From Pseudomonadota bacterium (GTDB lineage: Bacteria > Desulfobacterota > Binatia > UBA9968), in NCBI GenBank assembly GCA_021324155.1, contig JAJPJQ010000042.1:1-64000 (forward strand): DNA of 64,000 nt, written 5' to 3'. Shown here one piece after another: positions 46,951 to 60,285 of this stretch. Numbering within the stretch: the first letter of the stretch is position 1; each line of letters opens with the position of its first letter. The notes under the pieces are model-generated. The model saw only the letters and a program-made list of their open reading frames with translations. It did no database searches and was not told the DNA's origin. Made by a program: the position numbers and the translations under genes.

Positions 46951-48540
46951 TCATTTACCTGCCGGCCGCGCGCGGCCGGTTTTTCTCACCTCGCCGGTCG
47001 CGTAGTGCTCGCCGCGCAGCGCGCGCTCGGCGTCCGCTTGATCCTCTTCGCTCCAGCTGCCGAGATTATAGCCGAACCAAGGATTTTTAAGTTGCAGCGC
47101 GGGCAGCTCGAGCTCGCGCCAGATCTCCTGCGCCTTGTCCATGAACTCGCGCCGCGGCAGCGATACCGGCGGATACTCCCACTTTCGCGTGGCGTCGATC
47201 AAGATCGCCGAGCCGCGCTGCTCCGCGGCCTGCTCGCGCGAGGATGGCGGCGCGAGCGAAAAATCCAGCCCCGTGGAGACCTTGATGTCGCGGATCTGAA
47301 TGTCGCGGTGCGGCTGCATGCGATAGGACATCGCCCATTGCACCGCATCGGCGTCGCGCGCGTCGATGTCCTCATCGACGGCGACGAGGATTTTCGGCGC
47401 GGCGCGCGGCATATCGGCGATTATATTGAGCGCGGCCATTGGATCGGCCCCGGCGGCCCGGTTCATCCGCACGACCCCGACGCCGTGGCTGCCGGCGGCG
47501 TCGGGCAGCGCGACTTCGACGATGCCTTTCATTTTCTTATCGACCGTCAGAATCTTAAAAATGAGCCCTTCCAAGCCGACGCCGCGCAGCACGCTCGATT
47601 CGCTCGGCGGAAATTGGCTGAGGAACGCCTGGAAGATCGCGTCGCGCCGCCGTGTGATGCATTTCACGTTCATGAACTTGTCGGGCGCGCGATGCGCCAT
47701 GTAGCCGGTGAACTCGCCGAACGGTCCTTCCGGCTCGACCTCGTCGGTCGGAATGATGCCCTCGATGACGATCTCGCTCCGCGCCGGCACCAGCAGATCG
47801 ACGGTCTTGCAGCGCACGAGCTCGACCGGCCCGCCGGCGATCGCGCCCGCGATAGGATATTCGGCGGACGTCAGCCGCGCCGTCGAGCAGTACGAGAGGT
47901 TCGGCGTGCAGCCGATCACGATCGCCGCCTCGAGCGGCATCTTGCGGGCGCGCGCCTTCTTCCAATGCTGGCTCACATCCTGGTACGCGAAGGCGAAAAG
48001 CCCGATGCGCGTCGGACTCTTGATCTGTCCTCGATATGTGCCGAAATTGTATTCGCCGGTTTCCGGATCTTTCGTCACCCAGTGCCCCGAGCTTAAAAAC
48101 GGTCCGCTGTCGAAGCCGGGCGTCGAGATCGGCACAGGCAGCATCCCCGCGCCGCCGGCCTCGTCAAGCTTTCTACCCTCATAGACGATTTCCTGGCACG
48201 GCCCCGTCTCCACGACGCGCGGCGGAATCGGGTGCGTCTGCGCCTCTGCCCATTTCCCCGCAATCTGCTCCGGCGCATCGACAGCCATGCCGAGCGCGTA
48301 GACTGCGCGGCTCGGCGCCATCACCGCGAGCGCAACGGGAATGTCGAATTTATTTCCGCGCACGTCGACGATATTCTCGAAGAGCCAGCCCTTGCGCTCG
48401 CGCTCGTTTAAGCCGCGGAACTGCAAGCGCACGAGCGGATGCATCTCAGTATCCTTGTCGATGCGCCGCCGGATGCGGTTCAAGTATCCCTTCGCTTCGA
48501 GCGCGTCGAGCCATTCGTGTAGGTCGCGATAATAGGCCAC
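46951..48540 (-). CDS. UbiD-family decarboxylase, copy 1
   Basis: A prenylated-FMN-dependent (de)carboxylase family member of 529 residues, acting on aromatic or alpha,beta-unsaturated acids. In the family alignment I can make by eye, the cofactor and catalytic pair N/R is kept (YNFGTYR), as is the glutamate motif EGPFGE; the family metal histidine is replaced near AYQD. Length is normal. UbiX, which makes the cofactor, is not in the window. Two other UbiD homologues lie at 53677 and 55235. Substrate unknown; it need not be the ubiquinone enzyme. Confidence 0.88.
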   Translation of the reverse strand: MAYYRDLHEWLDALEAKGYLNRIRRRIDKDTEMHPLVRLQFRGLNERERKGWLFENIVDVRGNKFDIPVALAVMAPSRAVYALGMAVDAPEQIAGKWAEAQTHPIPPRVVETGPCQEIVYEGRKLDEAGGAGMLPVPISTPGFDSGPFLSSGHWVTKDPETGEYNFGTYRGQIKSPTRIGLFAFAYQDVSQHWKKARARKMPLEAAIVIGCTPNLSYCSTARLTSAEYPIAGAIAGGPVELVRCKTVDLLVPARSEIVIEGIIPTDEVEPEGPFGEFTGYMAHRAPDKFMNVKCITRRRDAIFQAFLSQFPPSESSVLRGVGLEGLIFKILTVDKKMKGIVEVALPDAAGSHGVGVVRMNRAAGADPMAALNIIADMPRAAPKILVAVDEDIDARDADAVQWAMSYRMQPHRDIQIRDIKVSTGLDFSLAPPSSREQAAEQRGSAILIDATRKWEYPPVSLPRREFMDKAQEIWRELELPALQLKNPWFGYNLGSWSEEDQADAERALRGEHYATGEVRKTGRARPAGK

Positions 48541-48617: not shown

Positions 48618-48646
48618 TTGACTTTTTTCCGCGCCTATTATGTTAT
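48618..48646 (+). promoter_or_regulatory. Candidate promoter for the first S74 protein
   Basis: TTGACT (48618-48623), 17 bases, then TGTTAT (48641-48646), about 40 bases before the ATG at 48687. The AT-rich patch stands out in this otherwise GC-rich gap. Confidence 0.4.
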
Positions 48647-48686
48647 GGCGGGCGTTTTTTCACATTTCCCACCACAGGGAGGTCCT

Positions 48687-49661
48687 ATGCGCACGATAAC
48701 GGTTTTGGTTGCGCTCTGCCTTATTTTATCCGCGTTGTCTACAGCATCGGCCAAAGGGCCGCAAACGAATACGAAACTAGGATCGAGCGCACTTGGAGCG
48801 AAAAATCCAGCGCCGAATAACACCGCAGTCGGTTTCCAGGCGCTGGAATTCGACACTGCTGGCGCGGCGAATACGGCGGTTGGGTCCGGCGCGCTGCAGA
48901 ACAACAACGGTAACGCGAACGTCGCCGTGGGAATAAGCGCGCTGAACGCCAACACATTAGGCGATGAGAACACGGCGGTGGGCGGTTCAACGCTCCTAAA
49001 CAATGTAGTCGGCAACGACGTAACCGGTGTGGGTTTCGCGGCACTTGAGAACAGCACGGGCAGCGGCAATACCGGCGTTGGAAGTTTTGCGCTCTTTACG
49101 AACGTCAGTGGAACCGAGAATACGGCAATAGGACACAACGCCGACGTTTCCGCTGACAATTTGACGAATGCCACAGCCGTTGGTGCGGGTGCCGTTGTGA
49201 CGGCGAGCAACCAGGTCCAAATCGGCAGGGATGGATTTGACCTGGTTTCGATTGGGCTGTTCGGTAGCGGTGGCAGTCCCGTCTGCGTGTCCGGTACTGT
49301 TTTGACGAAGTGCACAATAGTATCGAGCCTGCGCTACAAAGAAAACGTGCAGACCTTTCAGCCCGGGTTGACGATTATCGAACGGCTGCGGCCGGTGACC
49401 TTCGACTGGAAGGATCGTAAGGAGCACGACCTTGGCGTCATCGCAGAGGAAGTTGCGCAAGTCGAGCCGCTGCTCATCACCTATGATCGCAAAGGCGAGA
49501 TTGAAGGCGTGAAGTATTCGCAGCTTACCGTTGTTCTCATCAATGCGGTGAAGGAACAGCAGCAGGAAATCGAGCGGCAGCGCGAGCAAAATGCCGCGCT
49601 CACTCAACGCCTCGATCGGCTGGAGGAATTGCTGCGAGCCCGGACGGCGTCTGCGCAATAA
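48687..49661 (+). CDS. Secreted YadA-head-repeat protein with S74 autoprocessing domain, copy 1
   Basis: A 324-residue exported protein. It starts with a signal peptide (cleavage about ASA-KG, residue 22). It then has about eight NTAVGxxAL-type repeats of 14-18 residues, as in trimeric adhesin heads and phage fibres (about 45-185). The C-terminus is a peptidase S74 intramolecular chaperone (about 235-305) with Ser-Lys dyad pattern SSLRYKENV and LGVIAEEVAQVEPLL, then a coiled coil. S74 domains trimerise fibres and cut themselves off. AGGGAGG precedes the ATG at 48687, so earlier starts are rejected. No phage genes nearby. Confidence 0.88.
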   Translation: MRTITVLVALCLILSALSTASAKGPQTNTKLGSSALGAKNPAPNNTAVGFQALEFDTAGAANTAVGSGALQNNNGNANVAVGISALNANTLGDENTAVGGSTLLNNVVGNDVTGVGFAALENSTGSGNTGVGSFALFTNVSGTENTAIGHNADVSADNLTNATAVGAGAVVTASNQVQIGRDGFDLVSIGLFGSGGSPVCVSGTVLTKCTIVSSLRYKENVQTFQPGLTIIERLRPVTFDWKDRKEHDLGVIAEEVAQVEPLLITYDRKGEIEGVKYSQLTVVLINAVKEQQQEIERQREQNAALTQRLDRLEELLRARTASAQ

Positions 49662-49705: not shown

Positions 49706-50773
49706 ATGAGCAGAAGAATAATTACCGTATTCGCGTGCTGCGCACTTCCAGTCCTGTCGCTTTCCACAGGCTGGGCCAAGAGCCCGACGCGGAACACCAA
49801 ATTGGGAACCGGCGCTCTCGCTAATAAAACGGCCGGCACCGACAACACCGCGATCGGCTTCGACGCGCTTGAGCGCGACACTTCCGGAAACGGAAACACC
49901 GCTGTTGGCTCCGGCGCGCTGCAAAACAACACGGCCGGAATCGCCAATACGGCGGTCGGCTTTAACGCTCTTTTCAGCAATATCGACGGCACACTCAACA
50001 CCGCAGTCGGCCCCGGCGCGCTCGGCGACAACACGAGCGGGCTGGTGAACACCGCAGTCGGTGTAAACGCGCTTTCATCAAATACGACTGGTGAAAGTAA
50101 TGTCGCTCTTGGGATCGACGCATTGGACAGCAATATCGGCGGAAGCGACAATACCGGGATCGGTGCCGACGCCTTGAACACGAATGCGACGGGACATCAC
50201 AATACCGCGGTCGGCTCAGGTGCTAATGTCTCCACGGATGGCTTGAGCAATGCAACCGCCATTGGTGCGGGCGCCGTTGCCGACGGCAGTAACCTTGTCG
50301 TCCTCGGCAATACCTCCGTCGTGCTGGTAAAAACATCCGGCGATTTACGCGTAAAATCCTGCGTAACCAGCGGCGACGGAAGCACTGCTATCGCGGGCAT
50401 CTGCGCGTCCGACGCGAGGCTCAAAACAGGCATTCGCCCGTTCCCCTTCGTAGTCGACAGACTCGCTAAGCTTCAACCCGTGTATTTTCACTGGAAACCT
50501 GAAGAGTACCCCGAGCTACAGCTCGGCACCGGCGAGAGCTACGGCTTAATCGCTCAGGAAGTCGAGAAGGTCATGCCGGAGCTCGTAAGCGAGGATTCGA
50601 AAGGCTTCAAAGCGGTTCATTACAGCATGCTCCCGCTGATGATGCTTCAGGGAATGAAAGAGCAGCAGCAGGAAATCGTCCGCCAGCGAGAAGAGAACGC
50701 GGCGCTGAAAACACGCCTGGAGCGGATTGAGCAATTATTGCGCGAGCGGACGGCGGCGGCCGAAGTACGGTAA
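49706..50773 (+). CDS. Secreted YadA-head-repeat protein with S74 autoprocessing domain, copy 2
   Basis: A 355-residue paralogue of the gene 44 bases upstream. It has a signal peptide (cleavage about GWA-KS), nine or ten NTAVG-type repeats (about 45-205) and an S74 domain starting at SDARLKTGI (Ser-Lys dyad), with YGLIAQEVEKVMPELV and a C-terminal coiled coil. Probably a tandem duplication and cotranscribed; the repeats and dyad context have diverged (SSLRYK against SDARLK). GGAG lies before the ATG. It may form a hetero- or homotrimeric surface fibre. Confidence 0.88.
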   Translation: MSRRIITVFACCALPVLSLSTGWAKSPTRNTKLGTGALANKTAGTDNTAIGFDALERDTSGNGNTAVGSGALQNNTAGIANTAVGFNALFSNIDGTLNTAVGPGALGDNTSGLVNTAVGVNALSSNTTGESNVALGIDALDSNIGGSDNTGIGADALNTNATGHHNTAVGSGANVSTDGLSNATAIGAGAVADGSNLVVLGNTSVVLVKTSGDLRVKSCVTSGDGSTAIAGICASDARLKTGIRPFPFVVDRLAKLQPVYFHWKPEEYPELQLGTGESYGLIAQEVEKVMPELVSEDSKGFKAVHYSMLPLMMLQGMKEQQQEIVRQREENAALKTRLERIEQLLRERTAAAEVR

Positions 50774-50838: not shown

Positions 50839-51783
50839 ATGAAAGCGATTGTCACGCTCGCGGTTTTCATCCTGTGTCTCGCGTTCGCCACCGTTTCTCG
50901 CGCCGAGATCGTCACGCTCGGCATCTCGACCGTCGGCCTGTACGAGCTGCCGACCGAGATCGCGAAGCGCAAAGGCTTCTATCAGGAAGAAGGCCTGGAG
51001 GTGCGGAAGATCGCCATTCGCACCGGCATCCAGGTTGCCGCGCTGCTCGCGGGCGAGCTCGACTACTCCACCGTCTCCGGCATCGTCTCCAGCGCGAGTA
51101 TCCAAGGTCTGCCGCTCAAGACCGTCATGGGATGGCTCGACAAGCCGCTGCACATGCTGATCGCGCGGCCGGGCATCAAAACGCTCGCCGACTTGAAAGG
51201 GAAACGTATCGCCATCAGCAGCTTGAACTCGGTGCCCCACGTCGCGGTGCGCGAAGCGCTCGCCCAAGCGGGCATGAATCCCGACAAGGACGTTACGTTC
51301 CTGGCGCTAGGCGGCTCGAGCGAGCGCGTGAGCGCGCTCGCCTCCGGGACCGCGGACGCCTCCCCTGTCGACCTCGCCTACATTCAAAAAACCGAGCAGA
51401 TGGGGTTCACGGATCTGCTCTACCTCGGCGACGCTGTCAACATCCGGCTCGGCGGTCTCGGCGTGACCGAGGATAAAATCAAGAAAAATCCCGAGCAGAT
51501 TAAACGCATGATCCGTGCGACGCTGAAAGGCGTGCGCTTCATGCGTCCGAACAAAAACGAGACGCTCGCCATCATGCGCGATTACTTGAAGATCAGCGGC
51601 GACTCCGGGGATAAAATCTATCAATACGCGCTGCGCTCGCTGAACGAAGACGGCCTGGTAGCGAAAAAAACCGTCGACACGGAAATCCGCATCGCGCGCG
51701 AGCAGCTCAAGATCAAAGAGGAAATTCCCGAGTCGAAAATCTTCGACTGGAGATTCATGAAGGAGATTGCGGCGAAAAAGTAG
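50839..51783 (+). CDS. NMT1/THI5-like periplasmic substrate-binding protein, copy 1
   Basis: A 314-residue periplasmic protein with a signal peptide (cleavage about SRA-EI). The bilobed SsuA/NMT1-like fold is marked by AKRKGFYQEEGLEV, a LLAGELDYSTVSG segment, and DLKGKRIAISSL. Family members bind nitrogenous bases, sulfonates, aromatic acids or other small ligands for an ABC importer. No permease or ATPase gene is in the window. Two relatives lie at 60286 and 61282. Ligand unknown. Confidence 0.85.
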   Translation: MKAIVTLAVFILCLAFATVSRAEIVTLGISTVGLYELPTEIAKRKGFYQEEGLEVRKIAIRTGIQVAALLAGELDYSTVSGIVSSASIQGLPLKTVMGWLDKPLHMLIARPGIKTLADLKGKRIAISSLNSVPHVAVREALAQAGMNPDKDVTFLALGGSSERVSALASGTADASPVDLAYIQKTEQMGFTDLLYLGDAVNIRLGGLGVTEDKIKKNPEQIKRMIRATLKGVRFMRPNKNETLAIMRDYLKISGDSGDKIYQYALRSLNEDGLVAKKTVDTEIRIAREQLKIKEEIPESKIFDWRFMKEIAAKK

Positions 51784-51917: not shown

Positions 51918-52844
51918 ATGACGAGTAACGCGCAGATCGAGGGCATCCTGATCCCGATGCCGACTTCCTTCAAGGAAGATGGCGCGATCGACGAAGCGGG
52001 CACCGACGCATTGACCGATTTTTACATCAACGCGGGCGTGCAGGGCTTTTTCGCGCTCGGCACGCACGGACAAGGCATGGTGATGGAGATCGACGAGCGC
52101 AAGCGCGTCGCCGAACGGCTCGTGCGCCGCGTCGCCGGCAAGGTCCCGATCGTGCTTCACATCGGCACGGCGAACACTTATTCCTCGATCGATCTCGCCA
52201 AGCACGCCGTGAGTCTCGGCGTCGACGCCATCGCCGTCGTGCCGCCTTATTACTATCCGCACAACGACGCCGAGGTTTATCTCCATTACAAAGCGATCGC
52301 GAAGGCGGTGCCCGGCACGCCGATGTTCATCTACGACAACACCGAGACGACGCACGTCCACATCACACCGCCCAAGGTGCTGAAGGTGATCGAGGCGATC
52401 GCGCCGAACCCGCTCGCCGGCATCAAAGTCTCATTTCTTCCCTTCGATCAATTGCTCGGCTACGCGTTCAAGCTGCCGAAGTCGGTCGGCATCTTCCCGG
52501 GCTCGATCTACTCGCTGTTCGCCGCCTACTCCCTCGGCGTGCGCGGCGCGATCAACCCGCCGACCACGCCCTTCCCGGAGCTCTGCGTCAAAATGTTCCT
52601 CGGGTTGAAGCACGGCAAATTGGAAGAAGCGCGCAAGGCGCACGACCAGCTCGCGGCGATCATGAACGTCGTGAGCCGCTATCTGCCCGAGCACGGCCGC
52701 GTCGTCTTCGGCGAGCTCATGCGCATGCGCGGGCTTCCGGTGCCGCGCTTCCCGCGCTGGGAATGCGCGCCCTTCACGGACAAGGAGCGGCAAGAATTGC
52801 GGCAGGGGTTGATCGATACCGGCGTCTCGCTGCCGCTCGGATAA
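51918..52844 (+). CDS. DapA/N-acetylneuraminate lyase superfamily aldolase
   Basis: A Schiff-base TIM-barrel lyase of 308 residues. The active-site lysine is in LAGIKVSF and the tyrosine region is PPYYYPH with YDNTE. The usual GTTGE loop of dihydrodipicolinate synthase is GTHGQG here, so the Thr-Thr proton relay is missing and lysine synthesis is unlikely; a different aldol or hydratase reaction is more plausible. GGAGGTG precedes the ATG. It heads a unit with a diiron-type protein and a UbiD-family enzyme. Confidence 0.85.
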   Translation: MTSNAQIEGILIPMPTSFKEDGAIDEAGTDALTDFYINAGVQGFFALGTHGQGMVMEIDERKRVAERLVRRVAGKVPIVLHIGTANTYSSIDLAKHAVSLGVDAIAVVPPYYYPHNDAEVYLHYKAIAKAVPGTPMFIYDNTETTHVHITPPKVLKVIEAIAPNPLAGIKVSFLPFDQLLGYAFKLPKSVGIFPGSIYSLFAAYSLGVRGAINPPTTPFPELCVKMFLGLKHGKLEEARKAHDQLAAIMNVVSRYLPEHGRVVFGELMRMRGLPVPRFPRWECAPFTDKERQELRQGLIDTGVSLPLG

Positions 52845-52864
52845 TCAGCTTTTACGGAGTGAAC

Positions 52865-53662
52865 ATGAGCGCGAACGGCAAGCTCGAGTGGGGTAAGAAA
52901 TTCAGCGCCGACGAAGCGGCGGCGTTCACCGACGACATCATCAAGAAGATGTACGCGCGCTGGCAGAAGAAAATCTTCCAGGGCGACTTCATGCGCGATC
53001 TTACGGCCGGCAAGCTGCCGCTCGAGACGATCAAGCTATTCTGGAAACACTGGTACAGCTATCCGGTCGAGATCAACAATTTTCATCTCATTATTTATCA
53101 GAGGCACCAAGGATTCTTCAGTCGCCATCCGGACCTGCTCGGGCCGTATGTCGGCAAGATCAGCGACGAGCTCGTGAACCCGAAGATTCCGGGACACATT
53201 CAAGTACTGATCGAGCAGGGAAAAACCTTCGGGGTGAGCCGCGAAGACATGGTCAACTGCGAAGTCTTCGCGGAATGCCGCGCGCTAACCGAATATGCGC
53301 GCGGTCTCGTCTATGAAGGCGCCATGATCGAATGGTGGGCGCGCTCCCTTAACGAAGAGATGTTCGGCCACTGGGCGCGCGAATGGCGCCAGGCGCTGCT
53401 CGGCAAATACAACTTCAAAGACGCCGATCTGCATTATTTCCAGGTGCACGAAGAAGCCGACTTGGAAGAGCACGAGGAAGGTCTCATGGCGCACGGGCAG
53501 GTCGCGCGCATGATCTTCCAGACGCTCTTGCAGGACGGCCTTGTCTGGACGCGGCCGGGCTGGTCGCCGGAATACTGCTGCCTGACGAATGCCGATTTCG
53601 TCGCGCTGTTTCACGACGGCATTTACAAGCACGCGAAAGAAGCCGGCCATTTTGTAGTCTAG
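52865..53662 (+). CDS. TenA/PqqC-like haem-oxygenase-fold protein, putative diiron enzyme (1)
   Basis: A 265-residue all-helical protein of the haem-oxygenase-like superfamily. Candidate metal residues are E102 and H111 in one helix pair, then H195, D199 and H203 in FQVHEEADLEEHEE. Characterised diiron members (SznF, BesC, CADD) have H-x3-D-x2-H; this one has H-x3-D-x3-H, so metal binding is uncertain. It lies between the DapA-like gene (20 bases) and a UbiD gene (14 bases). It could oxidise, cleave or decarboxylate a small molecule. Start ATG with GGAG upstream. Confidence 0.75.
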   Translation: MSANGKLEWGKKFSADEAAAFTDDIIKKMYARWQKKIFQGDFMRDLTAGKLPLETIKLFWKHWYSYPVEINNFHLIIYQRHQGFFSRHPDLLGPYVGKISDELVNPKIPGHIQVLIEQGKTFGVSREDMVNCEVFAECRALTEYARGLVYEGAMIEWWARSLNEEMFGHWAREWRQALLGKYNFKDADLHYFQVHEEADLEEHEEGLMAHGQVARMIFQTLLQDGLVWTRPGWSPEYCCLTNADFVALFHDGIYKHAKEAGHFVV

Positions 53663-53676
53663 CTCGTAACATCCCA

Positions 53677-55122
53677 ATGCCGTTCAACGATCTTCGCGAA
53701 TTCATCGACGCCGCGCGTAAAATTGGCGACGTCGAAGAGATTCACGGCGCGACCTGGGACCTCGAGATCGGCGCGCTGACGGAGCTCTTCGCCAACAAAG
53801 CCGATCACCCGCTGCTGCTGTTCGACAAAATTCCCGGCCATCCGCCTTCGTATCGCGTCGCGTCGAATCTCGTGACGCACCCGCGGCGAATCGCGCTCGC
53901 GTCGGGAATGCCGCCGGATCTGCCGCGGACCGAGATGGTGCGGCGCTGGCGGAAATCGCTTCAGGAGATGAAACCGATTCCGCCGAAAACGGTCGGCGAA
54001 GGACCGGTCCTCCAGAACAGCAAAAGCGGCGGCGAAATCGACATGACCGCCTTCCCCGCGCCGCGCTGGCACGAGCTCGACGGCGGACGCTACCTCGGCA
54101 CTGCTTGCTGCGTGATTACGACAGATCCGGACGAACCATGGGTCAATGTCGGCATCTACCGCGTTCAGGTCCACGACCGCGATCGCCTCGGCCTCTACAT
54201 CTCGCCGGGCCATCACGCGCGCATTATGCGCGAGAAATACTGGGCGCAGGGAAAAGCTTGTCCGGTCGCGGTCACATTCGGACAGGAGCCGCTTACGTGG
54301 CTGGCCGCCGGACAATCGGTGCCCTATGGCGTATCGGAGTTCGATTATGCCGGCGGGCTGCGCGGCGCGCCGGTGGAGGTCATCAAGGGCGAGCGCACCG
54401 GGCTGCCGATTCCGGCCGCTGCGGAGATCGCGATTGAAGGCGTCGTTCCTCCGCCCGAAGAGGAGAACCGCGTCGAAGGACCGTTCGGCGAGTGGCCCGG
54501 CTACTACGCGCACGGCGCGCGCATCGAGCCGGTCATCCGCGTGCAGGCGCTTTATTTCCGCAACGATCCGATCGTCGCGGGCGCGCCGCCGATGAAGCCG
54601 CCGATACTCACCTTCGGCATTCCGATCGGGGCGGCGGCGATCTGGAACTATTTGGAGAAAGCCGACGTGCCCGACGTGCGCGGCGTCTGGTCTTTCGCCG
54701 GCGGGTCCGCGCCGGGCGGCGGCGCGCCGTTCATCGTCGTGTCGATCAAGCAGCGCTACCACGGTCATTCACAGCAGGCTGCCCTCGCCGCGCTCGCGTG
54801 CCGCGCGGGCAATTATCACGGCCGCTATGTCGTCGTCGTCGACGAAGATATCGACCCTGCGGACATGGGCGAAGTTCTGTGGGCGATCGCGACGCGCTGC
54901 GATCCGAAGTCGGCCCTCACAATCGTCGACAACTGCTGGTCCACGCCGCTCGATCCCGCGATGACGCCGGAGAAGCGCGACGCCAACGATCTCACCAACA
55001 GCCGTGCCATCTTGAACGCGTGCCGCCCGTATTTTTGGAAAGACCGTTATCCGCCAGTGAACGCGCTCTCTCCGGAGCTTAAGAAAAAATTCACCGAAAA
55101 GTGGAAAGACATCCTGACGTAG
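53677..55122 (+). CDS. UbiD-family decarboxylase, copy 2
   Basis: The best-preserved UbiD here, 481 residues. Aligned by eye with fungal ferulate decarboxylase, it keeps the Asn and Arg of VNVGIYR, the metal histidine in SPGHHA, and both glutamates of EGPFGE, so a prenylated-FMN (de)carboxylase is likely. Substrate unknown; family members act on aromatic and acrylic-type acids. Last gene of the unit starting at 51918. It differs clearly from the truncated copy that follows. Confidence 0.9.
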   Translation: MPFNDLREFIDAARKIGDVEEIHGATWDLEIGALTELFANKADHPLLLFDKIPGHPPSYRVASNLVTHPRRIALASGMPPDLPRTEMVRRWRKSLQEMKPIPPKTVGEGPVLQNSKSGGEIDMTAFPAPRWHELDGGRYLGTACCVITTDPDEPWVNVGIYRVQVHDRDRLGLYISPGHHARIMREKYWAQGKACPVAVTFGQEPLTWLAAGQSVPYGVSEFDYAGGLRGAPVEVIKGERTGLPIPAAAEIAIEGVVPPPEEENRVEGPFGEWPGYYAHGARIEPVIRVQALYFRNDPIVAGAPPMKPPILTFGIPIGAAAIWNYLEKADVPDVRGVWSFAGGSAPGGGAPFIVVSIKQRYHGHSQQAALAALACRAGNYHGRYVVVVDEDIDPADMGEVLWAIATRCDPKSALTIVDNCWSTPLDPAMTPEKRDANDLTNSRAILNACRPYFWKDRYPPVNALSPELKKKFTEKWKDILT

Positions 55123-55179
55123 CCGCCACCGATTAATCGCCGCGGCACGGCAAAAAATAATACCTCAAAATTCATTTAT

Positions 55180-55196
55180 GTATTGACTATCAATAC
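55180..55196. promoter_or_regulatory. Operator-like palindrome between the two UbiD units
   Basis: GTATTGA (55180-55186), spacer CTA, TCAATAC (55190-55196): a perfect 7-bp inverted repeat in a locally AT-rich gap. It overlaps a TTGACT -35 candidate (55184-55189). This is a typical layout for a repressor site of the MarR, GntR or PadR size class. No regulator gene is in view. Confidence 0.55.
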
Positions 55197-55234
55197 AAAA
55201 AGCAATTAGATAAGGGCAGCTTCCGGAGGTGCAG

Positions 55235-56401
55235 ATGCCCTTCTCAGACCTACGCGACTATATCTCCCGGCTCGAATACGAAGACGAAGTTCAGCGAATG
55301 GACGACGAGGTCCAGCCCGTCTTTGAGATCGGCGCCGTGCTCCGCCGCGCCTACGAGCTGCGCGCGCCCGCACCGTTTTTCACGCGCATTCGCGGCTTTC
55401 CCGATCAGCGCGTTTTCGGGGCGCCGATCGGCCTCAGCCGGAGAAGAAACGCGCCGTTCCTGCGCTTCGCCGTCGCCATGGACATGCGTCCCGAGTCAAC
55501 GCCGCCGGAAATCGTCGAAGAATACATGCGTCGCATTGCGAAGCCGATCCCGCCGGTACTGGTGAACAGCGGCCCCTGCAAGGAAAACATTCTGACCGGC
55601 TACGCCGTCGATCTGCAGAGCTTCCCGGCGCCCGTGCTGCACCGCGACGACGGCGGGCCTTACATCGGGACCTGGCACGCCAATATCGCGAAAGATCCCG
55701 ACACCGGCGCGCGCCGATGGGGACTCGACCGCTTGATGATCCACGGCAGAAAAATGATGGGTGGTCTGCTGCTGCCGGGACAGAAATTCGCCGAGCATTA
55801 CTACGCAAAGTACGAGCCGCGCGGACGCGCGATGGAATTCGCCGTTGCGATCGGCACCGAGCCGGTGACGCCATGGGTGGCGGCGACGCGCTTGCCGCCT
55901 AATGTCGCCGAGGCGGATATCGTCGGCGCGATCCGCGGCGCCCCGCTCGAGCTCGTGAAATGCGAGACCGTCGATTTGGAGGTGCCCGCGACGTCGGAGA
56001 TCGTGATCGAGGGATTCATTCCGCCGTACGAAAGGCAAAAGGAAGGCCCTTTCGGCGCCGACGTCGCGGATGCTGGCGGCGAGCGCGCGCCGCGTCCGGT
56101 GTATCACGTCACCGCCATCACGCATCGCGACCGGCCGATCCTGCCCGTTGCGCTCGACGACTTGGCCGTCGCCCTCTCTCTGACGCGCGCGGCGGAAATC
56201 CTCGCCGAGACGCGCCGCCGAGGTTTTCCGGTGCGCTCACCGTTCTTCCCACCGGAGGCCGCGATCTCGTATTGGCAAGGCGAGAACGGAATAGGCGACT
56301 GGCCGCATGAAGATCCCCTGCGCTCCGCGTGGTCGTCGGAAATTCAAAAGATCGTACGCGACTGGCGTCTCCACACCTACCGTGGCGAAGCCTCTGAATG
56401 A
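55235..56401 (+). CDS. Truncated, divergent UbiD-family protein, copy 3
   Basis: UbiD-like over its 388 residues, but about 100 shorter than usual at the C-terminus and altered in the active site. The Asn of the N-x4-R motif is Arg (RRWGLDR), the metal histidine position is Gln (LLPGQK), and the second glutamate of EGPFGE is Ala (KEGPFGADV). It is probably not a standard decarboxylase; it could be a partner subunit or catalyse another reaction. GGAGG lies five bases before the ATG at 55235. Its stop overlaps the acyltransferase start (ATGA). An intact reading frame argues against a simple pseudogene. Confidence 0.82.
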   Translation: MPFSDLRDYISRLEYEDEVQRMDDEVQPVFEIGAVLRRAYELRAPAPFFTRIRGFPDQRVFGAPIGLSRRRNAPFLRFAVAMDMRPESTPPEIVEEYMRRIAKPIPPVLVNSGPCKENILTGYAVDLQSFPAPVLHRDDGGPYIGTWHANIAKDPDTGARRWGLDRLMIHGRKMMGGLLLPGQKFAEHYYAKYEPRGRAMEFAVAIGTEPVTPWVAATRLPPNVAEADIVGAIRGAPLELVKCETVDLEVPATSEIVIEGFIPPYERQKEGPFGADVADAGGERAPRPVYHVTAITHRDRPILPVALDDLAVALSLTRAAEILAETRRRGFPVRSPFFPPEAAISYWQGENGIGDWPHEDPLRSAWSSEIQKIVRDWRLHTYRGEASE

Positions 56402-57336
56402 GGCCGCGGCGCATCGCCGATCGACTCGCGTACCGCGCGATCGAGCTGCTGTTTGTCGCGTTCCGCTTTGTCATCCGCTGCCTGCCCGCCGATAGCTTCC
56501 GGCGTTTAGCGACGCCCGCAGTCAGGCTCATCGTCCGGATAATGATTCCTCGCCGACGCATCGTTAAAAACCTGCACGCGGCGTTCGGCCGCTCCTATTC
56601 GACTGCGACCAAGGCCGGTCTGGCACGCGGGGTTCAGGACAACTTCGTGCGCGGGCTGATCGACTGCTTTCTTCAACTCGCCGATCCCGAGCGCGCGCGT
56701 CGGAAAATTGCCATCGAAGGGTTCAAACATCTCGAAGCCGCGCTCGCCAGAGGCAACGGTGTCATCGCCCTCGGCGCGCACCTCGGCAACTTCGTCCTGG
56801 TCGGGACGCGCCTCGGCATGGAAGGCTATTGCGTCTCGACCCTCTTTCGCGTGCCGGACGACGAGCGCCTGCGCGCCCTCATCGAAGAACATCTGAGGTA
56901 CTTTCACCAGCAGGTGATCCCATCGCGGCCGCGCCGCGCGGCCGTTCGCGCGATGACCGATAAGCTCAAGCGCAACGAGATCGTTTTCATTCTCGGGGAC
57001 AATCTCAAAGAGGGAAAAGTCGAAGGCTCTCTGTTCGGCCGGCGCGTCTATACGCCGCGCGGGCCGGTCAGCCTCGCGTTCCGCACCGGCGCTGCGCTCG
57101 TGCCGATGTATCTGGTGCGGAACTACGACGGCAAACTCACGCTCGTAATCGAGCCGGAGCTGCTTTTAATCAGAAACGGAAGCGTGTATGAAGATGTCAG
57201 CGGCAACACGCGTCGGATCGTCGGTTATCTAGAAGGGCTGATCGGCCGCTATCCCGATCAATGGAACTGGCTCACCGTCCGTATGAGGAAGAATCCTCGC
57301 GGCCGAGGTGAACGAAGCGCGCAACGGCTTCAATGA
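56398..57336 (+). CDS. LpxL/HtrB-like lysophospholipid acyltransferase family protein
   Basis: A 312-residue protein with an N-terminal membrane-associated helix (about 14-28) and the lipid A acyltransferase-type core. The active-site motif, usually H-x4-D/E as in GHxGNWE, reads AHLGNFVL here: the histidine is kept and the acidic residue is Val. Activity is therefore in doubt. ILGDNLKEGKVEGSLFGR and the TPRGPVSLAFRTGAALVP segment fit the family. It overlaps both neighbours by 4 bases, so it is embedded in the UbiD/diiron unit rather than in a lipid A locus. Confidence 0.78.
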   Translation: MRPRRIADRLAYRAIELLFVAFRFVIRCLPADSFRRLATPAVRLIVRIMIPRRRIVKNLHAAFGRSYSTATKAGLARGVQDNFVRGLIDCFLQLADPERARRKIAIEGFKHLEAALARGNGVIALGAHLGNFVLVGTRLGMEGYCVSTLFRVPDDERLRALIEEHLRYFHQQVIPSRPRRAAVRAMTDKLKRNEIVFILGDNLKEGKVEGSLFGRRVYTPRGPVSLAFRTGAALVPMYLVRNYDGKLTLVIEPELLLIRNGSVYEDVSGNTRRIVGYLEGLIGRYPDQWNWLTVRMRKNPRGRGERSAQRLQ

Positions 57337-58031
57337 ATACTTTAGAAAAAGAGATCAAAGATATTGTTTTGCAATCGATTTATTTGGATGCATCCACGTT
57401 CAATCGCGTCCAGCCCGGCCAGCTTACGAAGGACGGCGGGCGCGTCTTCGTAACCCAGTTCTCGCATTTCACCCGCAACTTCCCGCGCTGGCTTGCCGCT
57501 GTGGCGGCGAATTGCCCGGTGGCCGACGCGCGGAAATTTCTCGTCGCCAATATGTACGAGGAAGAAGTCGGCCCCGGCGCGCAGGGATCGCATTACGATT
57601 TATTGTTGCGTCAGGGTGAAGCGCTCGGCCTCACGCGCGATCAGATCGAGACGACGATTCCTTTGCCTTCTACGGCGGTCGCGATCGACGCGCTCGACAG
57701 CATCTGCCGCAGCCGCTCGTGGCTCGAAGGCCTCGCGGCGACGACCGGACTCGAATGCATCAACGATCCGACGCTGCGCGCGAAAGCGGGCGTCGTTATC
57801 ATTAACGACGTGCGCTCCTGGCAGCATTTAGGGTTGAATCAGCAGCAGCTCCGATCGCGCACGATCCACATGGAAGAAGACGAGAAGCACGTCAACACCG
57901 GCCTTAAAATCCTCGCTGAGCAGGCGAACACGGAAGAAGCGGCGGCGAAAGCCGTCGCTTCGGCGCGCGAAGCCCTGCTCGCGTTTCGCCTGTTGATGGA
58001 AGGAATCGGCCGCGCCGCGCTCGGGGAATGA
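57333..58031 (+). CDS. Haem-oxygenase-like diiron protein, putative (2)
   Basis: A 232-residue all-helical protein with a well-formed HDO-type metal set: E77 in NMYEEEVG and H87 ten residues later, then H179, D183 and H186 (H-x3-D-x2-H) in IHMEEDEKHVNTG. The spacing matches characterised members such as SznF and BesC, which use a transient diiron centre to oxidise or cleave amino-acid-like or fatty substrates. It overlaps the acyltransferase by 4 bases and ends the unit that starts with the truncated UbiD. Substrate unknown. Confidence 0.8.
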   Translation: MNTLEKEIKDIVLQSIYLDASTFNRVQPGQLTKDGGRVFVTQFSHFTRNFPRWLAAVAANCPVADARKFLVANMYEEEVGPGAQGSHYDLLLRQGEALGLTRDQIETTIPLPSTAVAIDALDSICRSRSWLEGLAATTGLECINDPTLRAKAGVVIINDVRSWQHLGLNQQQLRSRTIHMEEDEKHVNTGLKILAEQANTEEAAAKAVASAREALLAFRLLMEGIGRAALGE

Positions 58032-58110: not shown

Positions 58111-59214
58111 TTACCGCAGCGCCGGCATTTTGTTCGGGATGCCGCGCTTCTTGATCTCCGCTTCGAAAATCCGCCGAATCTCCGGATCCTCGTCCTCGTA
58201 CTCGATCAGTGTGCCGCCTTCTTTGACGCTGATGAAGACGCCGCCGTCGCGCTTCTGTGCTGCGACGTAGAAGGCCATCTTGTGCCGCTTGCTGCCGTAG
58301 CGGAGGGCGAGCTGGCGCGCGGGCGCCTCGCCGAGATTGAAGTGCTGGTGGAACCAGCCGTTCGGCGGGCCGAACGCGGTGCCCGGCTTCCAATCGACAC
58401 GCACGACCTGATCGCCGTGGCCGCTGGCGTAAGGATGGATGCCGAGCTCGTTCGGCCACATGATCGTGTAGCCTTCCGACTTGAGAATCAGCAGCACGGC
58501 GCCGGCGCCGTGGTAATGCGCCTTATGGTACATACCGACCGGCCATTCCACGAGATGGCCGACGAGCGAGTTACCCGCGATTTCGAAGCCGGTGAAGGAG
58601 CCGCCCTTGCCTTTGTATTCGTGGGCGTCGATCGACGCGGTCGCAACGTCGGCGATGAAGTTCGTATCCCAGTAGTTGCCGCGGCCGATCACGTAGCGCT
58701 TGTTCGATACCTCGAAATAATTCTCCTCGCCGTTGTAACGGTCGGTAAACTGATATTCGCAGTTGAAGACGAAGTCGGCGTTGTGGAACATGTCCATGAT
58801 CATCGGTGCGTTAGTCACCGCCGCCAGGCGCGCGGGCTGGCCGCCGCCGTTGATCAGACGATACGAGGAATTGAGCGGGACGGCGAAAAGACTTCCGGCG
58901 CCCCACTCGAAGAACCGTTTCGCCTGGCCTTCCTGCCAAATCTCCGTCGAGCCCAGGCCGCTCACCACGTAAAAAACTTTTTCGTAGAGGTGCTTCTCCG
59001 GCTGAAGCGCTTTGCCGCCTGGAATCTCGACTACCTCCATTGCGGTCGCGCCTTCCATGCCGCGGAGCTGCACGAAAGCGCCGCGGCCGCCTTTGCGCGG
59101 CCAATCGCCCAGCTTGATATCGTCCACGTCGACGCCGTATCCCTCGATCACGGGAACGCCCTGCTCTTTAATCCACCGTTCGTAAAACGGAGCGGGATTT
59201 TCCATTTCCGCCAT
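58111..59214 (-). CDS. Bicupin-domain protein
   Basis: A 367-residue protein with two cupin modules. The first (about 60-130) has KHLYEKVFYVVSG and a glycine-rich second motif. The second (about 215-310) has MYHKAHYHGAGAVLLIL and NGWFHQHFN, whose histidines suit a metal site. No signal peptide. Bicupins include dioxygenases, decarboxylases and isomerases; the reaction here is unknown. It is on the opposite strand to the UbiD units and has its own promoter-like sequence, but may belong to the same catabolic neighbourhood. Confidence 0.82.
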   Translation of the reverse strand: MAEMENPAPFYERWIKEQGVPVIEGYGVDVDDIKLGDWPRKGGRGAFVQLRGMEGATAMEVVEIPGGKALQPEKHLYEKVFYVVSGLGSTEIWQEGQAKRFFEWGAGSLFAVPLNSSYRLINGGGQPARLAAVTNAPMIMDMFHNADFVFNCEYQFTDRYNGEENYFEVSNKRYVIGRGNYWDTNFIADVATASIDAHEYKGKGGSFTGFEIAGNSLVGHLVEWPVGMYHKAHYHGAGAVLLILKSEGYTIMWPNELGIHPYASGHGDQVVRVDWKPGTAFGPPNGWFHQHFNLGEAPARQLALRYGSKRHKMAFYVAAQKRDGGVFISVKEGGTLIEYEDEDPEIRRIFEAEIKKRGIPNKMPALR

Positions 59215-59375: not shown

Positions 59376-60194
59376 TTAAGGATACATGTATTCGATCGGC
59401 GGCGATTCGAATTCCGAGTCGACCTTGACGACCCCGGGTACGCCCTCGGCAAGGCGAATGATGTCGCGCTCGAGGTCGAGGTTGGCGAGAATTCCGGAAA
59501 GGTGCACGCGCCCGCCGTCGACGTCGACATTGATCGTCAAGTTGCGCGTCTTGGGCGAGACGATGAGCGCGGCCTGCACCCTGGCCGTTATCGTTAGATC
59601 CTGAAACGCGCGCTCGGATTCCGCCGTCGGCTGGTACTCCGGCCGTCGCGACGCCTCGACGATCAGATGTGCCGCACTATCCAGGCTCATGGCGCCGACA
59701 TTGATCACGAGGTCGTAGCGGCTGGGATCGCGCCAATCGCCGCCGAAAAGCGCCTGCAGGCGGCGCATGCGGGCTTTATCGACCTGCTCGATATAATGCA
59801 GTGCCGCGGTCTCGCTCATGCCCTCGCGCGCGCGCACCTGCTCGACGCGGTAGCTCATCGGCGCGGTCAGATAGACGCGCAGCACGTGGCGGATGCCGGG
59901 GAATAGGTCCTGGCCGGCGTGGCCGTGATAGACGATGTTGCCGCTTTGCGCGACCTCGCACATCGCCGCCTGGAGCACGATACGGTAGAGCCGCAGCCCT
60001 TCCTGCCAGCGCTCCCACCAGCGCGGCGCCGTGTCGAGTATCTCGGTGAATTTCGCTTCGGGGATCCCGTAGCCTTCGCTCGCCTTCATGAGAACTTCGC
60101 GGCTGACGCAGCGGTAGCCGAGCTGCGCAGCGACCCGTTCGGCCAATTCAGGGCCGCCGCTGAAAGCGCCTCTGGTGAGAGTAATGATCGACAT
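59376..60194 (-). CDS. Cytidylate-kinase-like protein fused to a BON domain
   Basis: The 272 residues combine a P-loop-kinase-like domain of the Cytidylate_kin2 type (about 1-190; ITLTRGAFSGGPELAERVAAQLGY, YHGHAGQDLFPG, REGMSETAALHYI) with a C-terminal BON domain (about 205-270). The nucleotide loop lacks the usual GK(S/T), as is common in this family, so catalysis is uncertain. BON domains bind membranes or small ligands and normally sit in exported proteins, whereas no signal peptide is present here. GGGAGG eight bases before the ATG at 60194 fixes the start. Function unknown. Confidence 0.78.
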   Translation of the reverse strand: MSIITLTRGAFSGGPELAERVAAQLGYRCVSREVLMKASEGYGIPEAKFTEILDTAPRWWERWQEGLRLYRIVLQAAMCEVAQSGNIVYHGHAGQDLFPGIRHVLRVYLTAPMSYRVEQVRAREGMSETAALHYIEQVDKARMRRLQALFGGDWRDPSRYDLVINVGAMSLDSAAHLIVEASRRPEYQPTAESERAFQDLTITARVQAALIVSPKTRNLTINVDVDGGRVHLSGILANLDLERDIIRLAEGVPGVVKVDSEFESPPIEYMYP

Positions 60195-60285
60195 TTGCGT
60201 CACCTCCCTTGAGCGCAGGCTGGTGCCCGATATTTCGCGATACCCTTTAGCATGCCGGTAGGGAGCGATTCAACCCGGCCGGGGT

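Follow-up and report, generated by a model that had tools for sequence, protein, structure and literature searches.

The analysed DNA, here called the window, is a stretch of 64 kb that contains two neighbouring gene sets, each combining a UbiD homologue with a protein of the haem-oxygenase-fold (HDO) type. All six genes of the two sets, as described in an earlier note on this DNA, are confirmed in position and strand. The two sets and the genes around them are as follows.

46951..48540, minus strand: third UbiD nearby; PF01977, E 2e-51; triad R-E-E intact
50839..51783, plus strand: periplasmic binding protein of NMT1 type, 5' of unit 1; PF09084, E 3e-25
51918..52844, plus strand: gene 1 of unit 1, a class I aldolase/lyase of DapA type (DHDPS family, 308 aa); PF00701, E 5e-47
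52865..53662, plus strand: HDO1, haem-oxygenase-fold protein and predicted dimetal oxidase, 265 aa; AlphaFold2 fold with match to CtCADD
53677..55122, plus strand: UbiD1, intact prFMN-type decarboxylase, 481 aa; PF20695 (UbiD_N), PF01977 and PF20696 (UbiD_C) over cut-off
55235..56401, plus strand: UbiD2, 388 aa, the UbiD of unit 2 in shortened form; no UbiD_C match, catalytic Glu replaced by Ala
56398..57336, plus strand: protein of the lipid A acyltransferase (LpxL) family, encoded between UbiD2 and HDO2; PF03279, E 1e-31
57333..58031, plus strand: HDO2, CADD/PqqC-like haem-oxygenase-fold protein, 232 aa; PF14518, E 1e-23
58111..59214, minus strand: protein with a cupin domain, convergent to unit 2 and conserved beside it; PF07883

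Unit 1 spans 51918-55122 with intergenic gaps of 20 and 14 bases, and a spacer of 112 bases separates it from unit 2, in which adjacent genes overlap by 4 bases. Scans for promoters and terminators gave no more matches than in shuffled sequence. The third UbiD is absent from the earlier note.

The aldolase has K170 at the place of the Schiff-base Lys and Y139 at that of the catalytic Tyr, as in class I enzymes of the DHDPS superfamily, and both residues are retained in all 13 rows of the alignment (the window, 11 of the 12 orthologues and one paralogue from the same genome). It shares PF00701 and the catalytic Lys and Tyr with NanA, KDG aldolase and YagE of the DapA superfamily, but has GTHGQG and YDNTETT instead of the usual motifs. 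The DapA enzyme of the lysine pathway was rejected as its identity (NCBIfam equivalog TIGR00674, 104.3 bits against a cut-off of 206.15), and each of the seven NCBIfam models that it matched scores it under the cut-off.

HDO1 matches PF14518 with E 0.0018 and is missed at the Pfam cut-off, but it is placed among HDO-type proteins because of its predicted structure. The AlphaFold2 model (pLDDT 93.3) has the haem-oxygenase fold of the HDO superfamily and aligns with CtCADD, one of the self-sacrificing pABA synthases, at Z 25.1 and rmsd 1.9 A (212 aligned residues, 19% identity). The predicted fold is the same as that of UndA (Z 21.8), HrmI (Z 21.9) and BesC (Z 19.5), at 9-16% identity over the alignments, and a profile of the HDO1 set matches CADD (1rcw) with E 2e-7. 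E102, H111, E164, H195 and D199 of HDO1 correspond to five of the six CADD metal ligands and are invariant in 23/23 aligned homologues; the HEEAD stretch is identical letter for letter in HDO1 and CADD. At the sixth position CADD has His (H181), whereas HDO1 has Glu202, found in 21 of the 23 homologues (one D and one P in the others) and adjoined by His203 in 22 of them.

HDO2 carries the whole set of three His and three carboxylates (E77, H87, E141, H179, D183, H186), as do CADD and the pABA synthases, and this set is given for the HDO superfamily in the accessible text of PMC13108848. The residues are invariant in 17 aligned proteins, except D183 (at least 90%), in an alignment that left out 4 of the 18 non-HDO1 matches of the genome. 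A profile of the HDO2 set matches 9pj4, named 4-aminobenzoate synthase, with E 6e-31, and HDO2 itself reaches 71.6 of the 200 bits needed for the NCBIfam CADD model.

CADD-type pABA synthases use a sacrificial Tyr (Y27) and Lys (K152), according to the available part of PMC11965152. In HDO1 these positions are Met43 and Trp174, and the tyrosine of 9pj4 equivalent to CADD Tyr27 is Phe23 in HDO2. The sacrificial Tyr is thus absent from both proteins, and pABA synthase was rejected as their identity. Both adjoin genes of catabolic type, unlike pABA synthases, and no folate gene was seen beside them. PqqC was also rejected (equivalog TIGR02111: 40.0 of 240 bits for HDO2, no match for HDO1).

UbiD1 has all three UbiD domains and the intact triad R162-E267-E272; an E(D)-R-E triad is described for UbiD enzymes in PMC8988006. 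Its nearest solved relative is 7pda (448 bits over the whole length), with AroY, Fdc1, AnInD and other UbiD decarboxylases more distant. No open PMC paper tying 7pda to UbiD was found, and the entry is absent from the available portions of PMC8988006 and PMC10865409. Among the NCBIfam UbiD families, UbiD1 is under the equivalog cut-offs and above a subfamily cut-off only. PF02441 has two matches in the genome, in open frames of 216 aa (UbiX size) and 403 aa (CoaBC size), assigned by length only.

The earlier note considered the two units a possible duplicated module of which one copy had become regulatory. Neither part agrees with the comparison. UbiD1 and UbiD2 are 34.3% identical and stand far apart on the UbiD tree, and HDO1 and HDO2 are 21.0% identical and fall into different HDO subgroups. 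In the related genome G121, UbiD2 is full length (488 aa) with triad R-E-E, whereas the window copy has R-E-A and matches PF01977 and UbiD_N but not UbiD_C, so that it lacks both the complete domain set and the triad of a UbiD. Between the two copies dN/dS is 0.20 before residue 265 and 0.45 after it, which indicates relaxed constraint in the second half of the window protein. The window UbiD2 is a UbiD by descent and probably not an active decarboxylase. There is no sign of a regulatory role, and recent decay or change of UbiD2 in the window genome is the simpler explanation, because G121 has the intact gene. The LpxL-family acyltransferase is missing at the equivalent place in G121, which has two homologues (37-39% identical) elsewhere; the cupin gene has an 83% identical counterpart at the same place. 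An HDO2 orthologue (72% identical) occurs only in G121 among 25 genomes of the family. Unit 2 is best seen as a UbiD-HDO pair of its own that occurs in two genomes and whose UbiD has decayed in the window genome.

In an uncultured bacterial group, unit 1 is conserved as a set of closely spaced genes. Of 148 genomes of the class, 13 have an HDO1 orthologue; all 13 belong to one family, and in every one of them the aldolase lies immediately 5' of HDO1. A UbiD1 orthologue follows immediately 3' in ten (two of them partial). It is missing downstream in L103, L104 and L106, whose contigs stop 0.4 to 1.9 kb past HDO1; given these three, UbiD1 may be optional. Between the window and G121, dN/dS values of 0.14 (aldolase), 0.064 (HDO1) and 0.13 (UbiD1) point to strong purifying selection. 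The binding protein at 50839 is retained 5' of unit 1 in L101, L102 and L103. In L109, two CoA-transferase subunits and an OCD protein precede unit 1 and an amidohydrolase follows it. HDO1 paralogues in the window genome adjoin FAA hydrolase, dienelactone hydrolase and arylmalonate decarboxylase-like genes. Neighbours of both kinds are typical of catabolism. Flanking periplasmic binding proteins, which the earlier note suggested could deliver the substrate, say little about it, since the genome encodes at least 151 NMT1 proteins.

The same genome (4.8 Mb) has 41 UbiD and at least 27 HDO genes, the latter a lower bound to which gene calling adds one HDO2-type gene at C29:41686. The chance of adjacency was estimated by circular shifts, with three distances tried per test and the lengths of some contigs estimated. 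A UbiD lies within 3 kb of 6/27 HDOs, both window HDOs included, against 1.26 expected (1.1% of shifts as high). In three relatives, 10/75 HDOs are near a UbiD at 3 kb against 3.5 expected (1.0% of shifts), two of the ten pairs being unit 1 itself; at 2 kb the pooled count is 6/75 (5.4% of shifts). Adjacency of HDO and UbiD genes is above chance in both sets. Taken by themselves, HDO1-type genes show no clear enrichment in the window genome (2/9 near a UbiD, a count reached in 4.2% of shifts for 2 kb and in 7.9% for 3 kb). In G123, one of the three relatives, none of 16 HDOs is near a UbiD. On the UbiD tree, the UbiDs beside HDO1-type genes fall at four positions, of which three or more are clearly separated, with neighbour labels assigned by hand and the L082 UbiD put with HDO2 although an HDO1 is equally near. 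That different genera keep unit 1 is stronger evidence than the enrichment.

We consider it probable, at roughly 60%, that the genes of unit 1 are transcribed together and form a catabolic module in which aldolase, O2-dependent oxidase and decarboxylase serve one pathway. A DapA-superfamily aldolase/lyase working through a Schiff base, a dimetal HDO that activates O2 and a prFMN-dependent UbiD would share a route for an aromatic or unsaturated carboxylic acid, with UbiX encoded at another place in the genome. The aldolase and HDO1 would form the tightest pair and UbiD the usual third step. The data are best read as one shared pathway, because HDO-UbiD adjacency is above chance in several unrelated pairs and unit 1 is conserved. 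Unit 1 looks like an undescribed breakdown pathway. The substrates of known substrate-oxidising HDOs are mostly fatty acids or amino acids, and these enzymes serve mainly in natural-product synthesis (PMC13108848), whereas HDO1 adjoins an aldolase and a UbiD. Against a shared pathway stand the 21 of 27 HDOs without a UbiD within 3 kb and the 36 of 41 UbiDs without an HDO at that distance (5/41 have one); nor does any of the genes point to a particular substrate. The earlier idea that decarboxylation and diiron oxidation act on one substrate is accordingly supported in part, by the adjacency and by the conserved unit.

An unlikely alternative is that the genes are neighbours by crowding only, with UbiD, HDO and binding-protein paralogues shuffling freely and no pathway behind their order. 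The sheer numbers of these paralogues speak for it, as does the variety of enzymes beside HDO1 paralogues, one of which has a UbiD 3' in G126 and G128 and DLH and AMDase-like genes 3' in the window genome, where its upstream side is a contig end. The order of unit 1 across genera and the enrichment over shifted controls in two sets speak against it. For independent assortment, which the earlier note had named as refuting the pairing, the outcome is thus divided: HDO1 always comes with the aldolase (13/13) and less regularly with UbiD (10/13), and one paralogue changes partner.

HDO1 might also lack a dimetal site and act on the aldolase product as a metal-free enzyme of TenA or PqqC type. This is rather improbable; the Glu at the H181 position and the fold matches to PqqC (Z 22.5) and TenA-type proteins (about 17-21) would suit such an enzyme, but the remaining five ligand positions, including the HEEAD stretch, are invariant. 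Very improbable is a service role, in which HDO proteins would use O2 to bring the prFMN of their UbiD partner to the active oxidised form, much as the small protein LpdD presumably assists another UbiD: UbiDs require oxidative maturation, some with a partner protein (accessible text of PMC10865409), and HDO1-type proteins stand beside UbiDs from at least three separate tree places, but HDO1 stays with the aldolase in L103 and L106 where no UbiD1 follows, and few UbiDs have an HDO nearby.

The catabolic module may be one case of a wider pattern, put forward here tentatively and with odds somewhat against it. HDO-fold dimetal oxidases would be a main catabolic oxygenase class of the order and, with tens of UbiDs and up to tens of HDOs in a genome, would form exchangeable oxidase-decarboxylase pairs with UbiDs, sometimes with a DapA-like aldolase or with a Rieske oxygenase replacing the HDO; the HDO1 subgroup would have an altered metal site, with Glu-His for the third His. 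HDO-fold oxidases have so far been characterised mainly in natural-product and cofactor synthesis. If the catabolic reading of unit 1 holds, HDO enzymes would acquire a catabolic role, and UbiD enzymes would have an oxidase to work with. No open PMC paper was found with a UbiD beside an HDO, diiron or iron-containing redox enzyme or a DapA-like protein, or on a haem-oxygenase-like HDO in a catabolic pathway. The occurrence of the unit 1 operon in many related genomes offers a direct handle on the search for the substrate.

A second operon in the window genome, found in stretches picked for their UbiDs and so not an unbiased count, combines a UbiD, a Rieske oxygenase and an aldolase 40% identical to that of unit 1; its reaction types are the three of unit 1, but a different oxygenase is used. 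UbiD matches, of which at most 20 were scored per genome, number at least 19 in each of 31 genomes of the order examined (completeness at least 80%), and a bacterial order with so many UbiDs is a large untapped store of (de)carboxylases. HDO matches range from 1 to at least 22 per genome of the family, all with at least 19 UbiD matches, so that HDO and UbiD numbers do not rise together within the family.

The window carries two neighbouring gene units, each with a UbiD homologue and a haem-oxygenase-like diiron-type (HDO) protein, and the six genes that the earlier note claimed for them were all found where it had placed them. A third UbiD gene lies nearby on the opposite strand.

46951-48540, -, third UbiD
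51918-52844, +, unit 1, DapA-like aldolase
52865-53662, +, unit 1, HDO1 (PF14518 E 0.0018, under the Pfam cut-off)
53677-55122, +, unit 1, UbiD1
55235-56401, +, unit 2, UbiD2 (388 aa)
56398-57336, +, unit 2, acyltransferase (4-base overlap with each neighbour)
57333-58031, +, unit 2, HDO2

Within the class, 13 of 148 genomes, the window's own among them, have an HDO1 orthologue (E <= 1e-100), and all 13 belong to one family of 25 genomes. In the named relatives, nine MAGs labelled 'Deltaproteobacteria' and one labelled Syntrophobacter, the orthologues are 75-88% identical. The aldolase gene is immediately upstream of HDO1 in 13/13 genomes, and a UbiD1 orthologue (64-82% identical) immediately downstream in 10/13, a count including the partial genes of loci L111 (limited to the first 248 residues) and L112 (59 residues, contig end). 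UbiD1 was not found downstream of HDO1 in L103, L104, and L106, where the contigs stop 0.4-1.9 kb past HDO1; L104 has a UbiD, 47% identical, upstream of the aldolase. In L109, which is on the same contig as L087, unit 1 is preceded by genes for two CoA-transferase subunits, an HbpS-like protein and an OCD protein, with a cyclophilin on the other strand, and is followed by an amidohydrolase. Comparison of the window with the relative G121 gives dN/dS values of 0.14 (aldolase), 0.064 (HDO1), and 0.13 (UbiD1).

The most probable reading of unit 1 is an operon for catabolism: the aldolase as Schiff-base lyase, HDO1 as O2-dependent dimetal oxidase, and UbiD1 as prFMN decarboxylase would together dismantle one acid. 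The aldolase retains Lys170 and Tyr139, and UbiD1 has the catalytic triad and complete domain set, its nearest solved relative being 7pda (448 bits; runner-up 190). An operon elsewhere in the genome (L037, contig C41, 11763-16421) encodes a UbiD, a Rieske oxygenase, a 40% identical DapA-like aldolase and a TPP enzyme as two genes, with a TctC protein after, and shows the three reaction types of unit 1 with a different oxygenase; it serves as an illustration, not a count, because it was met in stretches picked for UbiDs and HDOs. Thiamine-diphosphate enzymes as separate N- and C-domain genes are seen on contigs C20, C27, C41, and C51 (e.g., L060, L061, L076), and the stretches sampled contain eight of the N-domain kind.

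The AlphaFold2 model of HDO1 (mean pLDDT 93.3) has its best structural match in CtCADD (Z 25.1, rmsd 1.9, 212 residues, 19% identity), followed by PqqC, HrmI, and UndA (Z 21.8-22.5). Of the six CADD ligand positions, His181 being the sixth, HDO1 retains five in 23/23 aligned homologues, and its HEEAD stretch, which holds retained positions, equals that of CADD letter for letter. The sixth position is aligned with Glu202 (21/23), next to which stands His203 (22/23). Judged from the alignment, Glu202 may itself bind metal, for a set of two His and four carboxylates, or the ligand may be His203, with one extra residue between. A Glu-Tyr-Cys triplet (residues 236-238) is present in 23/23 aligned HDO1-type proteins. 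HDO2 has the full HDO ligand set in alignment. The sacrificed Tyr of CADD lacks an equivalent in both HDOs, and therefore neither is a pABA synthase of the CADD kind.

The genome, a 4.8 Mb draft (98% complete), has 41 UbiD matches, at least 151 NMT1 binding proteins, and at least 27 HDOs (nine of HDO1 type plus 18 other PF14518 matches), the last a lower bound because gene calling added one more (C29:41686). The ubiX gene sought by the earlier note has a candidate by size: one of two PF02441 matches is UbiX-sized. Among 140 genomes of the class (completeness >=80%, up to 20 UbiDs scored per genome), each of the 31 of its own order has at least 19 UbiD matches, and just 7 of the other 109 have any. 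Genome G133 (8.3 Mb) gave 125 UbiD candidates at first look, and 20 of them were scored.

HDOs lie near UbiDs more often than by chance, both in the genome and in three relatives pooled. Within 3 kb, 6/27 HDOs of the genome are near a UbiD, including both window HDOs, which raised the question, vs. a mean of 1.26 in circular shifts (1.1% reach 6); the values are 4/27 at 2 kb (2.7%) and 6/27 at 5 kb (4.1%), and at 3 kb 2/9 for HDO1-type genes (7.9%) and 4/18 for other HDOs (2.8%). Genomes G123 (0/16), G126 (5/27), and G128 (5/32) pooled give 10/75 at 3 kb vs. 3.5 expected (1.0%), two of the ten being unit 1 (L107, L111), with 6/75 at 2 kb (5.4%) and 15/75 at 5 kb (0.4%). In L115, L116, and L117 an HDO1-type gene adjoins a UbiD; in L118 (3/10), L119, and L120 HDO2-type genes adjoin a UbiD or lie one gene off.

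UbiDs beside HDO1-type genes fall at four places in a tree of 61 UbiDs: UbiD1; L115_3603 with L116; L115_6966 with L117_9155; and C32_162608. The first two could have a common origin. A program's label count between two groups on this tree, with 39 rows set aside, gave three changes for each. An HDO1-type gene followed by a UbiD in G126 and G128 has a 72% identical relative in the window's own genome (contig end upstream) whose downstream neighbours are dienelactone hydrolase and AMDase-like genes, which counts against a fixed HDO1-UbiD partnership. Neighbourhood comparison gives a mixed picture, with HDO1 tied to the aldolase in every genome that has it and less tightly to UbiD1, and with one HDO1 relative beside other downstream genes.

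The two units are not copies of each other, against the idea of a duplicated module: UbiD1 and UbiD2 are 34% identical and HDO1 and HDO2 21%. An HDO2 orthologue occurs in 2/25 family genomes, the window's own and G121, where it has the same position, adjoining unit 1 (dN/dS 0.14). UbiD2 has 488 aa and the triad R-E-E in G121 vs. 388 aa and R-E-A in the window, with dN/dS of 0.20 up to residue 265 and 0.45 beyond. Two acyltransferase homologues were found in G121, at other places and 37-39% identical. Among 39 of the 41 UbiDs of the genome (two are outside the set), the triad is R-E-E in 31, R-D-E in three, R-E-D in one, and broken in four; two of these four adjoin an HDO2-type gene. One UbiD beside an HDO2-type gene, as is the window UbiD2, has the broken triad R-H-D (L041, contig C44 near 54748).

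About a dozen HDOs are validated, with predominantly fatty or amino acids as substrates (2026 review, PMC13108848), and the term UbiD is absent from the text of that review. No open-access paper was found on UbiD together with an HDO or with a DapA-like protein. The gene families are established ones; what appears undescribed within the open literature searched is the operon, how widely it occurs, and the ligand change of HDO1.

Two tandem ORFs at 48618-49661 and 49706-50773 look secreted, carry NTAVG-type repeats and a coil at the C-terminus, and by eye resemble tail-spike proteins with a chaperone domain. The gene at 59376-60203 (-), by eye a cytidylate-kinase-like part fused to a BON-like part, has a 75% identical counterpart at the same place in G121.
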